Virus record (IMG/VR): IMGVR_UViG_3300042401_002034
Span: 1-26,541 of that record
From: a virus
Length of the DNA stretch: 26,541 nucleotides
Strand: one strand, 5' to 3'
In this document: positions 274 through 9,828 of the stretch, in pieces
How the letters are laid out: every line of letters begins with the position of its first letter
Numbering within the stretch: position 1 is the first letter of the stretch
Position numbers and translations under genes: made by a program
The notes under the pieces: generated by a model
Database searches by the model: none
What the model was told of the DNA's origin: nothing
What the model saw: the letters and a program-made list of their open reading frames with translations, nothing else

Positions 274-579
274 ATGTATACAACAGACTGCAATTATTTC
301 AATATAACAAACTATAATAATGTTCAAGAAGGATATTATAGGTGGACAGGATGCACAGGTATCGTGAGTATCTCACCGATTAATACCTTAGACTCACACT
401 ATGTTTGTGCAAGAGATATTATGGTTGAAGAATATGGAGCACCTTTGACAGTTGTTTTTGCAGGACTATGTCCTTCAAATACACCAACACCAACAATGAC
501 ACCAACAATCACTCCAACACCTGTCACACAAACTCCAACTCCAACACCAACAATTACTCCGACAATAACTCAAACATAA
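274..579 (+). CDS. Small virion surface protein with C-terminal Thr/Pro-rich tail
   Basis: The 101-residue protein starts with ATG one base after the preceding stop. Residues 1-68 form a small Cys-containing domain (Cys6, Cys27, Cys46 and Cys66 region) rich in aromatic residues. From about residue 69 to the C-terminus it is a low-complexity Thr/Pro tract built of TPT, TIT and TPV units. The same linker chemistry joins folded modules in the next two genes. Here nothing folded follows the tract, so the protein ends as a free Thr/Pro tail, or the gene is a truncated relative of the longer neighbours. There is no frameshift visible: the stop TAA follows TQT, and a new box plus ATG follows at 617-630. 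Function unknown; exposed, possibly O-glycosylated virion protein is an inference. Confidence 0.65.
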   Translation: MYTTDCNYFNITNYNNVQEGYYRWTGCTGIVSISPINTLDSHYVCARDIMVEEYGAPLTVVFAGLCPSNTPTPTMTPTITPTPVTQTPTPTPTITPTITQT

Positions 580-616
580 TGGTCGAGTTCTTGTAATTAA
601 AAATAAAAGAGTTAAG

Positions 617-624
617 TATTTATA
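617..624 (+). promoter_or_regulatory. TATTTATA box, 3 nt before ATG
   Basis: GTATTTATA ends three bases before the ATG at 628. The same octamer precedes many genes in this window. It is the reverse complement of the T4 late box TATAAATA and also fits the Bacteroidota -7 pattern TAnnTTTG loosely. If it is a -10/-7 element, the transcript would begin at or next to the start codon. Confidence 0.5.
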
Positions 625-627
625 GAC

Positions 628-1245
628 ATGGCAGTATGTGGTGTAACAATTTTTAGTGAAAATTTAAGTGGTCTTACGACAAACGTAACGTTTTACCCAT
701 GCTCAGGAGGCACAATATCATTAGGTGACCAAGTTTTTCCTTTTAACTATGTTGATGATTATTATTTTGGTCAGTTTGATTGTTATGTTCCCCTATATGA
801 TTACAACTACATATTAGAAATTCCTTGTCCATCACCAACACCAACCGTAACCACAACACCAACAGAAACTCCTACTGCAACGCCAACACCAACAATTACT
901 TCAACCGTAACCCCAACTCCAACAGAAACACCAACAAACACTCCAACGGTCACACCAACGATAACTCCAACAAACTCAAGATTTGAATTTATTTGTTGCA
1001 CAGGTTCTACATTATCTGATGCATGTGGATGTTTAGGTGGAACAGTATCAATTTGGGGTGACGAAAGTAATTTTGACCAAAATACATTATTTTATAATGA
1101 ACAATTGGGGCCTGTGACAATCAATATGTCAGGTTTTTATAACAACTCAAATGTTGTTATTGAGTTGATTTCTGACGGAACAACAACAGGTTTTTTCTCT
1201 TTCTGTCCGACTCCAACACCAACGGTCACACCATCGGCAATTTAA
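628..1245 (+). CDS. Modular virion/fibre protein: N-domain, Thr/Pro linker, GYYS-type module A
   Basis: The 205-residue protein has an N-terminal domain (about 1-67; Cys4, Cys25, Cys52, Cys67), a Thr/Pro-rich linker (about 68-115, TPTVTTTPTETPT style), a folded module of type A (about 116-194), and a short Thr/Pro tail. Module A begins NSRFEF, has a SDACGC cysteine cluster, an FYNEQLGPVTINMSGFY stretch and ends in FSFC. It closely matches two modules in the next gene (NSRNSF... and ARFSF...), so the two genes are paralogous in architecture. There is no signal peptide or transmembrane segment, as expected for an intracellularly assembled virion part. Likely a fibre, whisker or capsid decoration; that role is inferred. 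The minus-strand Val/Gly ORF across the linker is only the shadow of the repeat. Confidence 0.7.
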   Translation: MAVCGVTIFSENLSGLTTNVTFYPCSGGTISLGDQVFPFNYVDDYYFGQFDCYVPLYDYNYILEIPCPSPTPTVTTTPTETPTATPTPTITSTVTPTPTETPTNTPTVTPTITPTNSRFEFICCTGSTLSDACGCLGGTVSIWGDESNFDQNTLFYNEQLGPVTINMSGFYNNSNVVIELISDGTTTGFFSFCPTPTPTVTPSAI

Positions 1246-7525: not shown

Positions 7526-7527
7526 TT

Positions 7528-8157
7528 ATGAATATACAAGAAAATATAACGAAATTTACCAACCTCGATGCTAATGACAGTCTATCAGCATTCAAAGGTA
7601 ATACCGCACAACAATTCCATGGTGCGTATGAAGTGTTCTATGAATTTTTAAAACAGGTTAAACCAAATCAAATTTTAGAAATCGGAACCGCATTAGGCGG
7701 ATTTACACAGTTTTTAAAACTTAGTGTAGATGACCTCGGACTCTCAACTAAAATATTATCATATGATATTGCTGAAAGACCTTGGTATAAAGATATTATC
7801 AACTTGGGAGTTGATGTTAGAGTCGAAGATGTTTTTGACTTTATAAATTTCACAGTTAAATCTGAAGTAGTTGATTTTATTAAACAAGATGGAATTACGA
7901 TTGTGTTATGTGATGGTGGTTGGAAAATTGGTGAATTCAAAGTTTTATCTGAACATATCAAATCGGGAGATTTTATTTTGGCTCATGACTATGCTGAGAA
8001 CAAAGAAGTTTTCGAATCTAAAATTGATGGAAAAGTTTGGAACTGGCATGAAATACAAGATTCAGATATCAGTGAGGCTAGTGATAAAAATAATTTACTG
8101 ATTTATAATAAAGAAACATTTGAAAATGTTGCTTGGACTTGTAGAGTTAAAAAATAA
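7528..8157 (+). CDS. Class I methyltransferase / cephalosporin hydroxylase-like protein
   Basis: The 209-residue protein has a clear SAM motif I ILEIGTALGGFT (49-60), an acidic motif II strand ILSYDIAERPW (76-86), VLCDGGWKIGEF (125-136) and GDFILAHDYAEN (146-157). This order and the final AHDY are typical of the cephalosporin hydroxylase/sugar O-methyltransferase-like group often found in polysaccharide clusters. Gap to the previous gene is two bases. In this context methylation of a sugar hydroxyl, acting as a cap, is more likely than antibiotic chemistry (inference). A second overlapping plus-strand ORF at 7871-8101 is a frame shadow. Confidence 0.6.
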   Translation: MNIQENITKFTNLDANDSLSAFKGNTAQQFHGAYEVFYEFLKQVKPNQILEIGTALGGFTQFLKLSVDDLGLSTKILSYDIAERPWYKDIINLGVDVRVEDVFDFINFTVKSEVVDFIKQDGITIVLCDGGWKIGEFKVLSEHIKSGDFILAHDYAENKEVFESKIDGKVWNWHEIQDSDISEASDKNNLLIYNKETFENVAWTCRVKK

Positions 8158-8160
8158 GAT

Positions 8161-9828
8161 ATGAACGGAGTAACTTTAGTAACGGGTATTTGGGATATTG
8201 GGAGAGGTGAACTATCTGAAGGATGGTCAAGACCTTACCAACATTATTTAGATAGATTCGAAAGATTATTGGATGTTGAAGAAAACATGATAATCTACGG
8301 TGATGAAAGTTTAAGAGAGCTTGTTTTCAGAAAAAGAACTTCAGAAAACACTCAATTTATTGTTAGAGATGTTTCTTGGTTCAAGGGTGAGTTTTATGAT
8401 AAAATTCAAAAGATAAGAACGGATTCTGATTGGTTTAATCAAGTTGGTTGGTTAAAAGATTCTACCCAAGCTAGACTCGAAAATTATAATCCTTTGGTAA
8501 TGTCAAAAGTTTTCCTTTTACATGATGCTAAGATAATGGACCAATTCAATTCCGATTATTTATTTTGGATTGATGGTGGTATTACGAATACGGTTCATTT
8601 AGGTTATTTCACTCATGACAAAGTTTTTGACAAATTACATAAGTATATTTCTAAATTTTCATTTATTTGTTTCCCATATGAAGCAACAAGTGAAATACAC
8701 GGATTTAATTCACACGTTCTAAATGAAATTGCTGGAGAAAAAGTTAACAAAGTCGCTCGAGGAGGATTTTTTGGTGGACCCAAACACACCATCACAGATA
8801 TTAATTCAATTTACTATGGGTTATTAAGTTCAACTTTGAATGATGGATACATGGGAACTGAAGAGTCTATCTTTTCAATCATGTGTTACAAACATTCAGA
8901 TTTGATAAATTACTTTGAAATTGAAGGTAACGGTTTGATTAGTAAATTTTTCGAAGATTTGAAAAATGAAACTTTGGTTGTTAAGTCTGAAAATCCTACA
9001 AGGGGAGCATCTAATTTAGATACAAATAAAGTAGGTCTTTACGTTATTGGGTTCAATAGTCCAAAACAATTCAAAACCTTGATTGATTCTATGTTGGCAT
9101 ACGACCAAGATTATATTTTAAAAACTAAAAAGTTTTTGTTAGATAATTCAACAGACTTGTCAACTAACGAGGAATACTTGGCAATTTGTCAAGAGTTTGG
9201 TTTTGAACATATTAAGAAAGATAACTTAGGTATTTGTGGAGGAAGACAATGGGTTGCTGAACATTTTGATTCAAGTGATTTAGATTACTATCTATTTTTT
9301 GAAGATGACATGTTTTTCTATAATAAAGACGGAGTTTGTAGAAATGGTTTCAATAGATTCGTTCCAAATCTTTATTCTAAGTCATTAGAAATAATGAAAA
9401 AAGAAAACTTCGATTTTTTAAAATTAAATTATTCTGAATTCTTTGGTGATAATGGAACTCAGTGGTCGTGGTATAATGTTCCACAAAGTGTTAGGGTAGA
9501 GTTTTGGCCTGAAAAACCAAGGTTACCTCGAATGGGATTAGACCCAAATGCTCCGAGAACTGTATTTGAATCGGTTCATTCTCATAAAGGTGTTCCATAT
9601 ACTAAAGGTGAAATTTATTATTGTAACTGGCCTCAAATAGTATCAAGAACAGGAAATCAAATAATGTTTTTGGATACAACTTGGGCACATCCATTCGAAC
9701 AAACTTGGATGAGTCATATGTATCAACTCACAAAAAAGGGAAAAATGTATTCAGGTTTATTATTGTTAACACCAACAGAACACGATAGATTCGAACATTA
9801 CGACAGAAGTATACGCAAAGAGTCATAA
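8161..9828 (+). CDS. Two-domain glycosyltransferase: HtrL/YibB-like N-half, GT-A-like C-half
   Basis: Residues 1-280 match the HtrL/YibB (WlaTC-like) family: VTLVTGIWDIGRG (4-16), a Trp/Tyr-rich helix, NMIIYGDE (42-49), PLVMSKVFLL (111-120), YLFWIDGGI (133-141) and a late MGTEESIFSIM (231-241). Residues 288-555 start a new beta strand, KVGLYVIGFNSPKQF, followed by a GT2-like layout with FFEDDMFFYN (379-388) as the DxD equivalent, and a WAHPFEQTW stretch near the end. The 555-residue length is about twice that of a single HtrL protein, so two transferase domains are fused. HtrL-type proteins occur in LPS/O-antigen clusters. It is the last gene of the operon; a TATTTATT box follows at 9834. Confidence 0.7.
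   Translation: MNGVTLVTGIWDIGRGELSEGWSRPYQHYLDRFERLLDVEENMIIYGDESLRELVFRKRTSENTQFIVRDVSWFKGEFYDKIQKIRTDSDWFNQVGWLKDSTQARLENYNPLVMSKVFLLHDAKIMDQFNSDYLFWIDGGITNTVHLGYFTHDKVFDKLHKYISKFSFICFPYEATSEIHGFNSHVLNEIAGEKVNKVARGGFFGGPKHTITDINSIYYGLLSSTLNDGYMGTEESIFSIMCYKHSDLINYFEIEGNGLISKFFEDLKNETLVVKSENPTRGASNLDTNKVGLYVIGFNSPKQFKTLIDSMLAYDQDYILKTKKFLLDNSTDLSTNEEYLAICQEFGFEHIKKDNLGICGGRQWVAEHFDSSDLDYYLFFEDDMFFYNKDGVCRNGFNRFVPNLYSKSLEIMKKENFDFLKLNYSEFFGDNGTQWSWYNVPQSVRVEFWPEKPRLPRMGLDPNAPRTVFESVHSHKGVPYTKGEIYYCNWPQIVSRTGNQIMFLDTTWAHPFEQTWMSHMYQLTKKGKMYSGLLLLTPTEHDRFEHYDRSIRKES

Follow-up and report, generated by a model that had tools for sequence, protein, structure and literature searches.

A phage GT60-type glycosyltransferase gene beside Thr/Pro stalk genes: a probable locus for mucin-type O-glycosylation with an exchangeable cassette

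The IMG/VR virus record IMGVR_UViG_3300042401_002034, 26,541 nt long and probably a fragment, was analysed over its whole length and is referred to here as the window. On its plus strand, three genes for proteins with threonine/proline (Thr/Pro, TP) tracts (274-3117) are followed by seven packed genes (3193-9828) headed by a gene for a GT60-type polypeptide N-acetylhexosamine (HexNAc) transferase, then by a gene for a protein of 126 amino acids (aa) and by a DNA polymerase gene. We consider it probable that virion stalks receive mucin-type O-glycans from the enzymes of this locus, and that the glycan is variable. The evidence comprises the fold of the modelled GT60 enzyme, the association of GT60 genes with TP tracts immediately upstream, and a set of glycosyltransferase (GT) and methyltransferase genes that changes between constant flanks. 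The assignment of the enzyme and of its likely substrate is well supported, that of glycan structure and benefit is not, and a constant initiator combined with an exchangeable cassette makes the stronger story. Two points are new: the exchangeable cassette between GT60 and a 555-aa enzyme, and a conserved terminator between the stalk and enzyme genes. The features concerned are as follows.

274..579, plus strand: TP1, 101 aa; small globular N-terminal part and C-terminal Thr/Pro tract; 39 TP-tract residues
628..1245, plus strand: TP2, 205 aa; globular N-terminal part, TP tract, bead, short TP tract; 80 TP-tract residues
1318..3117, plus strand: TP3, 599 aa; N-terminal domain and four beads of about 75 aa alternating with four TP tracts; 239 TP-tract residues
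3143..3166, plus strand: intrinsic terminator, 10-pair stem and T-run, between the last TP gene and GT60
3193..4461, plus strand: GT60-type polypeptide HexNAc-transferase, predicted glycan initiator, 422 aa; PF11397, 3.8e-66
4491..5129, plus strand: methyltransferase-like, cassette (family 13), 212 aa; MetW 0.069 and, for its relative in locus L269, 0.0013, both below the cut-off
5131..5832, plus strand: PLOD-type GT, cassette (family 7); ATG at 5131 preferred over GTG at 5098 (alignment A5)
5829..6812, plus strand: GT10 fucosyltransferase-like, cassette (family 8), 327 aa; PF00852, 7.8e-11
6812..7525, plus strand: probable GT-A glycosyltransferase, cassette (family 6), 237 aa; assigned from a conserved D-x-D
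7528..8157, plus strand: S-adenosylmethionine (SAM) methyltransferase, cassette (family 5), 209 aa; FtsJ, 25.6 bits against a cut-off of 24.1
8161..9828, plus strand: right-hand enzyme, constant (family 0), 555 aa; HtrL_YibB half (PF09612, 1.7e-21) and GT-A-like second half
9845..10225, plus strand: conserved 126-aa protein (family 1), constant right flank; kept in 117 of 118 loci
10316..13105, plus strand: DNA polymerase, constant right flank, used as anchor; phrog_262, 4.6e-52

Thr/Pro stalk proteins

Counting as tract residues those inside a 20-residue window with at least 65% T/S/P, we found long Pro/Thr/Ser-rich domains, the mucin-type criterion, in all three TP proteins, as the original prediction had described; its estimate of about 200 Thr/Pro residues in the 599-aa protein was a fair one. 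Shuffling the pooled window residues 200 times gave 0 tract residues, and 200 shuffles of TP3 itself gave a mean of 46 and a maximum of 133, against the 239 observed. TP3 contains 147 T, 62 P and 2 K, and Thr precedes 49 of its 62 prolines. The single repeat "bead" domain of TP2 is common to TP3, and the bead family occurs in 106 of 258 TP-rich open reading frames (ORFs) drawn from 160 related loci and the window, a redundant set. TP3 is likely the principal substrate of the glycan enzymes.

TP3 matches phrog_15511, a family of unknown function, at 1.6e-13. INPHARED searches with TP3, with a 1309-aa TP protein of locus L371 and with a 747-aa neighbour in L370 returned no match. One neighbour of the TP genes in L369 matches a virion structural PHROG; the TP proteins themselves match no structural family, and we infer rather than observe that the stalk genes are of virion type, as they had been labelled.

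A GT60-type enzyme with a mucin-initiator-type model fold

The assignment of the head gene to GT60, already made in the original prediction, holds: its product scores 224.4 bits against PF11397 (cut-off 21), a family that we take to be GT60, and matches phrog_24687 "glycosyltransferase" at 1e-166. An AlphaFold2 model was obtained with a predicted local distance difference test score (pLDDT) of 92.5 and a predicted template modelling score (pTM) of 0.86. The best solved folds are polypeptide N-acetylgalactosaminyltransferases (ppGalNAc-Ts), animal and Toxoplasma enzymes that start mucin O-glycans: they make up the first 29 of the 50 matches listed, with Z of 19.3-22.7, and the next match, another GT-A enzyme, has 18.1. 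Superposition aligned 260-283 residues with a root-mean-square deviation of 3.3-3.7, and Foldseek agreed (template modelling score, TM, about 0.43-0.55); the comparison hardly covers residues beyond about 328. As modelled, the enzyme is of the mucin-initiator-type GT-A fold. D93 and H95 are invariant in 32 aligned phage and bacterial GT60 sequences, forming a D-x-H that is presumably the metal-binding motif equivalent to that of ppGalNAc-Ts. At the sequence level, a Protein Data Bank (PDB) search with the window GT60 alone gave no match, and one with the GT60 profile A2 gave a single chance-level match (E 0.54).

Protist members of PF11397 provide the nearest functional comparison. The available part of PMC3188802 credits the Dictyostelium GT60 enzyme with initiating mucin-type O-glycosylation and relates it to animal ppGalNAc-Ts; according to the portion of PMC6939170 at hand, the family also includes Toxoplasma Gnt1, whose target is hydroxyproline, and the polypeptide enzyme of Trypanosoma cruzi. 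The window enzyme shares the Pfam family with these alpha-N-acetylglucosamine (GlcNAc) transferases of Dictyostelium, T. cruzi and Toxoplasma. It differs from them in being encoded by a phage, and therefore in operating without a Golgi, in having a cassette of extension genes alongside, and in that its function is predicted from sequence.

An alternative is that these GTs decorate phage DNA bases, as in glucosylation against restriction. Phage GTs often glucosylate DNA; the 555-aa protein weakly matches the beta-glucosyl-HMC-alpha-glucosyltransferase family (phrog_842, 0.0087); and a 2025 survey of moraphages lists four core GT orthogroups and, in the parts available, cites DNA glucosylation (PMC12619734). 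The described GT60 enzymes, however, act on polypeptide (PMC3188802, PMC6939170, both seen in part), and the solved structures closest in fold are ppGalNAc-Ts, which modify peptides, and, weakly, collagen GTs. The TP association moreover extends to bacterial loci, and none of the window genes scanned could be recognised as one for base hypermodification. We regard DNA-base modification as highly improbable.

Association of GT60 with upstream Thr/Pro tracts

Viral loci were taken from a GT60 scan (the best 80 of 431, thus close relatives of the window) and a polymerase scan (the best 80 of at least 597); the loci anchored on the two genes overlap in contig. Of the 72 GT60 loci with enough sequence, 70 have a TP tract in the 1.5 kb before GT60, and the 1.5 kb after it contains one in 0 of 80; TP tracts make up 31% of that upstream stretch and 0% of the downstream sequence available. 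Among non-redundant loci with at least 1 kb upstream, the figure is 55 of 57. The two exceptions are L028, which keeps the N-terminal domain of the stalk protein, and L218, which has 1.4 kb upstream in view and whose record (G018) contains 12 TP-pattern matches elsewhere.

Polymerase-anchored loci gave the same picture. Of the 48 (among the best 80) with at least 5 kb upstream, 34 contained both genes, 8 GT60 only, 0 TP only and 6 neither; in every one of the eight, no more than 1.5 kb separates GT60 from the end of the locus. Whole records were searched for GT60 in a hand-picked set of 15 of the 80 polymerase loci and two named phages, and for the TP pattern in the same set plus 12 GT60 loci. 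Among the six records with neither, GT60 was found further upstream in two and not in the other four, all shorter than 42 kb. L267, with a lead of about 17 kb, was compared with L268 over 10 kb and matches it there; the distance between GT60 and the polymerase in the L268 record is about 20 kb. The proposal that phage stalks are glycosylated by the phage GT60 thus survives, on the GT60 side, the possibility that the two gene sets occur independently.

Synteny inside one phage family proves little, and divergent cases of the GT60-TP pairing therefore matter. The pattern TPTxTPTxTPT was searched independently of GT60, with the reversed pattern as control and at least 120 stretches each; PF11397 was then sought in 99 distinct records, corresponding to 100 of 120 TP loci, and in 50 of 120 control stretches, mostly larger records being chosen. 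It was present in 20 of the 99 TP-pattern records, some of them from the window's own family, versus 1 of 50 controls (Fisher p 0.001). TP records tend to be longer than controls: between 15 and 100 kb the counts were 9/60 versus 1/43 (p 0.03, hand count), and at 100 kb or more 11/18 versus 0/2. GT60 was in view in 8 of the 120 TP-scan loci, six of which are only 27-71% identical to the window GT60; a TP ORF lies upstream of GT60 by 35 bp in L176 and by 165 bp in L119. The co-occurrence expected among relatives by the original prediction is therefore one-directional: TP tracts stand upstream of GT60 in nearly all of the related viral loci, whereas only a minority of TP-pattern records carry PF11397.

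Many viral contigs stop within a few kb on the upstream side of GT60. Short-read assembly may have been broken there by TP repeats; if so, stalk genes would stay hidden in surveys. In large records (L369-L375; records G001, G015 and G003), extra TP clusters lie far from GT60, and ORFs near them resemble, by eye, other GTs and methyltransferases.

An exchangeable cassette between constant flanks

For the comparison of gene content downstream of GT60 we took 118 loci, chosen because both GT60 and the polymerase were in view. In this set the 555-aa gene is present in 118 of 118 and the 126-aa gene in all but one; for the latter protein there was no PHROG, Pfam or INPHARED match. After two loci with incomplete GT60 had been dropped and the rest collapsed at 99% GT60 identity, 68 non-redundant loci remained. 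Their cassettes, defined as the genes between GT60 and the 555-aa gene, comprise 18 different sets: GT25 plus family 2 in 43 loci, family 2 alone in 6 and other sets in 19. Gene families were built by single linkage at 28% identity or more from a greedy ORF call, and the cassette of family 2 alone may be a mis-called (3,2). The sets differ between loci with a DNA identity of about 94-95.5% in GT60, as they do between the window and its nearest relatives. Median guanine-plus-cytosine (GC) content over the 118 loci is 0.301 in the cassette, 0.363 in GT60 and 0.316 in the 555-aa gene, and cassette GC is below GT60 GC in 27 of 27 non-standard sets. Pfam matches among 30 family representatives include GT10, GT11, GT25, GT7C, PLOD-type and RXYLT1-type GTs, FkbM and other methyltransferases, and one HAD/nucleotidyltransferase fusion. 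By eye, the long set of L268 also appears to contain an epimerase and a nucleotidyltransferase.

Several enzymes of the window's own cassette could be placed. The GT10 gene predicted for the operon is confirmed by its Pfam match. The PLOD-type assignment is also upheld, by way of relatives: the 5131-5832 protein itself has no Pfam match at E up to 1, its cassette relative in L224 matches GT_PLOD at 2.9e-14, and a six-member family profile matches mimivirus R699 (3e-16) and human LH3 (4.5e-9) in the PDB, making R699 and PLOD-type collagen GTs the nearest solved relatives by profile. LH3 acts on collagen lysines. Of two genes called methyltransferase-like, 7528-8157 lies just over the FtsJ cut-off, and 4491-5129 has weak matches only. 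Of two further GT units, the one at 8161-9828 stands as an HtrL_YibB protein with a GT-A-like half, while the 6812-7525 protein has no family match in Pfam or PHROGs; its assignment comes from D90 and D92, invariant in 7 aligned relatives. The model of the 555-aa protein (pLDDT 82.9, pTM 0.54) has LH3 and R699 as best, weak, fold matches (whole-chain Foldseek TM by query length 0.22-0.29), and its profile found nothing in the PDB at E up to 0.1. On the model, the protein appears to be a tandem GT-A enzyme, and we take nothing more from the weak fold match.

These comparisons altered the predicted glycan. A single fixed structure (GlcNAc on Thr, extension, fucose, methyl cap) had been proposed, and was rejected as cassette-specific: GT10, the PLOD-type GT and the methyltransferases are cassette genes that most relatives lack. 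Describing the system as self-contained was likewise too strong, since no gene for nucleotide-diphosphate (NDP) sugar synthesis was recognised in the window operon by Pfam or PHROGs.

In layout, the locus may be said to work like a bacterial O-antigen or capsule locus, with constant flanks and a hypervariable, low-GC middle of GTs, methyltransferases and, at some loci, sugar-nucleotide genes; it is unlike one in that the predicted initiator is a protein GT and the predicted substrate a virion protein. That likeness is also an argument for another reading, namely that the enzymes alter the host envelope (lipopolysaccharide, LPS, or capsule) during infection, for seroconversion or superinfection exclusion. 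GT25, HtrL_YibB, FkbM and nucleotidyltransferase types, which are common in LPS and O-antigen loci, occur among the enzymes of the window and its relatives. The enzyme beside the TP genes is, however, of a polypeptide-modifying type, and no lipid-carrier initiator, flippase or polymerase was named in a Pfam scan of 35 of the 49 downstream families (12 without a match, 14 unscanned). An envelope-directed function is, on balance, very unlikely.

A conserved terminator separates stalk and enzyme genes

The seven enzyme genes are co-directional, as originally described, and tightly packed, their junctions ranging from short overlaps to 29 bp. They had been said to follow the stalk genes directly; an intrinsic terminator at 3143-3166 lies in between. 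A terminator is present in 53 of 54 non-redundant TP-GT60 gaps versus 7 of 354 control stretches, and its stem covaries in 15 aligned gaps (9 cells changed on both sides, shuffled mean 1.9). What speaks for the terminator is its conservation, since such sites are no more frequent in the window than in shuffles (terminator-like 4 versus 4.0; promoter-like 55 versus 49.5). The stalk and enzyme genes are therefore neighbours that probably form two transcription units, and a single operon of stalks and enzymes was rejected.

This separation bears on a third alternative, in which the TP tracts are unmodified stiff spacers, GT60 is adjacent through a fixed late-gene block, and the enzymes act elsewhere in the virion, for example on a collagen-like Gly-Thr-Ser fibre. 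Within the window's phage family, shared gene order would be enough to produce the association, the terminator divides the two units, and a collagen-like protein is encoded near the second TP cluster of L369. PLOD-type and GT25 enzymes glycosylate collagen in other organisms. Against this reading, the pairing of GT60 with TP tracts recurs in divergent phages and at bacterial loci of several phyla, and the GT60 model matches mucin-initiating enzymes best. We judge the spacer explanation unlikely. The collagen-like protein (L369:1-5417, minus strand, record G001; collagen 1e-219) is an open-ended 1805-aa Gly-Thr-Ser-repeat protein adjoining that TP cluster, and it is a possible further substrate for PLOD-type and GT25 enzymes.

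Bacterial GT60 loci and the origin of the phage genes

Bacterial GT60 loci show a similar asymmetry, with a TP tract within 1.5 kb upstream (either strand) in 15 of 75 versus 0 of 78 within 1.5 kb downstream. Some of the bacterial TP ORFs are clear secreted-type proteins with twin-arginine-like signals, and in Jiulongibacter (L501, L504) a TP gene sits between two GT60 genes. By eye, the bacterial GT60 gene adjoins Ser/Thr-Pro proteins with twin-arginine-like signals in L501, L504, L289, L290, L315, L316, L349 and L359. A crude count found twin-arginine translocation (Tat)-like signals in 5 of 14 TP neighbours versus 27 of 889 other ORFs; the greedy ORF picker used for it dropped several TP ORFs seen otherwise. 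Tat-like signals on several bacterial partners would fit glycosylation in the cytoplasm before export, and these neighbours suggest cytoplasmic mucin-type glycosylation ahead of Tat export in several phyla.

GT60 is rare among Bacteroidota, since a match over most of the profile was found in 1 of 395 random genomes, that one being the query genome; the matches in ten other genomes were short, weak and close to the cut-off. A tree of 97 sequences places window-type phages among Bacteroidota including Saprospiraceae, with the exact sister of the window clade not settled, XacN1 and RAS14 with Pseudomonadota, and L126 with Prosthecobacter. Composition is odd in L126, L176 and others, and some contigs of bacterial metagenome-assembled genomes may be phage. 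Because phage GT60s fall with different bacterial groups in this tree, phages probably took up GT60 more than once.

Cultured relatives and published systems

Three named phages in INPHARED match the window GT60 at E up to 1e-5. The GT60 of Stenotrophomonas phage RAS14 and that of CM1 are each 44% identical to it. ORF334 of XacN1 is a GT60 of the window kind (49% identity), and the available passages of the XacN1 paper report at least two glycoproteins (PMC5852040). XacN1 encodes the TP proteins ORF369, 370 and 372 close to its tail sheath gene, ORF367, and more TP proteins at 124-133 kb. XacN1 differs from the window in having a carbamoyltransferase after GT60 and GT60 apart from the TP genes; Thr/Pro tracts are not mentioned in the available passages (PMC5852040).

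The moraphages of the 2025 survey, mostly from freshwater and with genomes of 200-307 kb, share several features with the window type in the portion of the paper available: large size, mostly freshwater origin, likely Bacteroidota hosts, core GTs, a family-B DNA polymerase and a tail sheath (PMC12619734). Its authors mention DNA glucosylation first and virion targets too, and the main text, as available, does not use the words threonine, proline or mucin. The same source describes mycobacteriophages whose GTs glycosylate virion proteins (Freeman et al. 2023), with glycans reported at the C-termini of capsid and tail tube subunits. The window differs from that case in its long Thr/Pro stalks, GT60 initiator and exchangeable cassette. 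Judged by titles and the starts of abstracts, with few subscription papers covered, no paper found treats the pairing of phage GT60/PF11397 with mucin-like or Thr/Pro-rich proteins.

Evidence weighing against stalk glycosylation

Several results weigh against glycosylation of the stalks by GT60. The evidence for the window's GT60 family consists of genes and models, no glycan having been observed; TP1-3 match no named structural protein in PHROG or INPHARED searches; and the terminator separates the TP and GT60 gene sets. Among viral loci, L028 keeps the TP3 N-terminal domain just upstream of GT60 with the tract gone, and in polymerase-anchored L282 a TP ORF lies downstream of GT60, directly before the polymerase. 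TP tracts often occur without GT60 (79 of 99 TP-pattern records lack PF11397). Of the eight TP-scan GT60 loci, only four have GT60 preceded by a TP ORF at no more than 1.5 kb, and two of those four belong to the window's family; upstream TP ORFs are absent from L169 and L197 and are 2.7 kb and 11 kb away in L126 and L148. Among bacterial loci, 60 of 75 have no TP tract in the 1.5 kb upstream, 6 of 74 have one 1.5-3 kb downstream, a weaker contrast with upstream (p 0.03), and some TP ORFs in GC-rich loci resemble spurious frames. Twelve of the 30 cassette representatives, including the commonest, family 2, have no Pfam match at 0.05. Cultured phages contribute further points: XacN1 GT60 is not adjacent to TP genes, the XacN1 glycoproteins are not identified in the available text and no tail fibres were found there by microscopy or homology (PMC5852040), and RAS14 has looser TP ORFs only, with no exact TP-pattern match.

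Other genes of the window

The polymerase at 10316-13105, presumably of family-B type, is not close to that of any named phage, the best identity being 23-30% over part of its length. Of the original description as T4-like, the tail sheath and tube stand, and this distance of the polymerase speaks against the rest. The tail sheath gene (20567-23776, plus strand) is long, at 1069 aa, with the best-scoring sheath-family stretch confined to the last 220 or so residues. In a 512-aa protein (14566-16104, minus strand), the first half carries Fe/Mn superoxide dismutase domains (Sod_Fe_C 1.3e-39, Sod_Fe_N 1.5e-22); the roughly 280 residues after them match nothing in Pfam. A 135-aa SET-domain protein (17900-18307, minus strand; 2.9e-14) is encoded next to a DNA helicase-family gene (16146-17900); the SET domain is best known from eukaryotes.

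Discussion

Glycosylation of the stalks would proceed as follows. The stalk proteins would be small beads on Thr/Pro rods, located on the virion and modified in the host cytoplasm. There the GT60-type enzyme would start the glycan by adding HexNAc to Thr in the TPTx tracts, alpha-GlcNAc being the most likely sugar, and cassette GTs, fucosyltransferases and methyltransferases, together with the constant 555-aa tandem GT, would build the outer glycan. The cassette is exchanged while the flanks stay constant; related phages would therefore display different glycans on the same stalks, so that related virus particles may wear different sugar coats. Such variation would probably tune adhesion or avoid recognition; adhesion to mucus or particles, protease resistance and shielding from the host, the benefits suggested in the original prediction, are candidates.

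A broader reading, to which we give somewhat short of an even chance, is that GT60 with a Thr/Pro stalk is a general prokaryotic mucin-type module captured several times from bacteria, and that in large, probably Bacteroidota, phages it forms a virion glycotype locus with a fixed protein-linked core and an exchangeable outer-glycan cassette. If this is true, the cassette would diversify virion surfaces as O-antigens diversify cells.

Accounts of mucin-type O-glycosylation that begins with a GT60/GT27-like enzyme usually concern eukaryotes, and a phage version with a tight pair of substrate and enzyme is a small, testable system. The GT60 enzymes would form a probably cytoplasmic mucin-initiating family that could be used for glycosylating Thr/Pro proteins in bacteria. 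Stalk glycosylation also offers an alternative meaning for core GTs that are discussed first as DNA modifiers in the available part of the recent survey (PMC12619734). For the phages themselves, it predicts glycoprotein stalks on widespread freshwater members, with the exchangeable glycan cassette as a possible reason for the variety of their virion surfaces.

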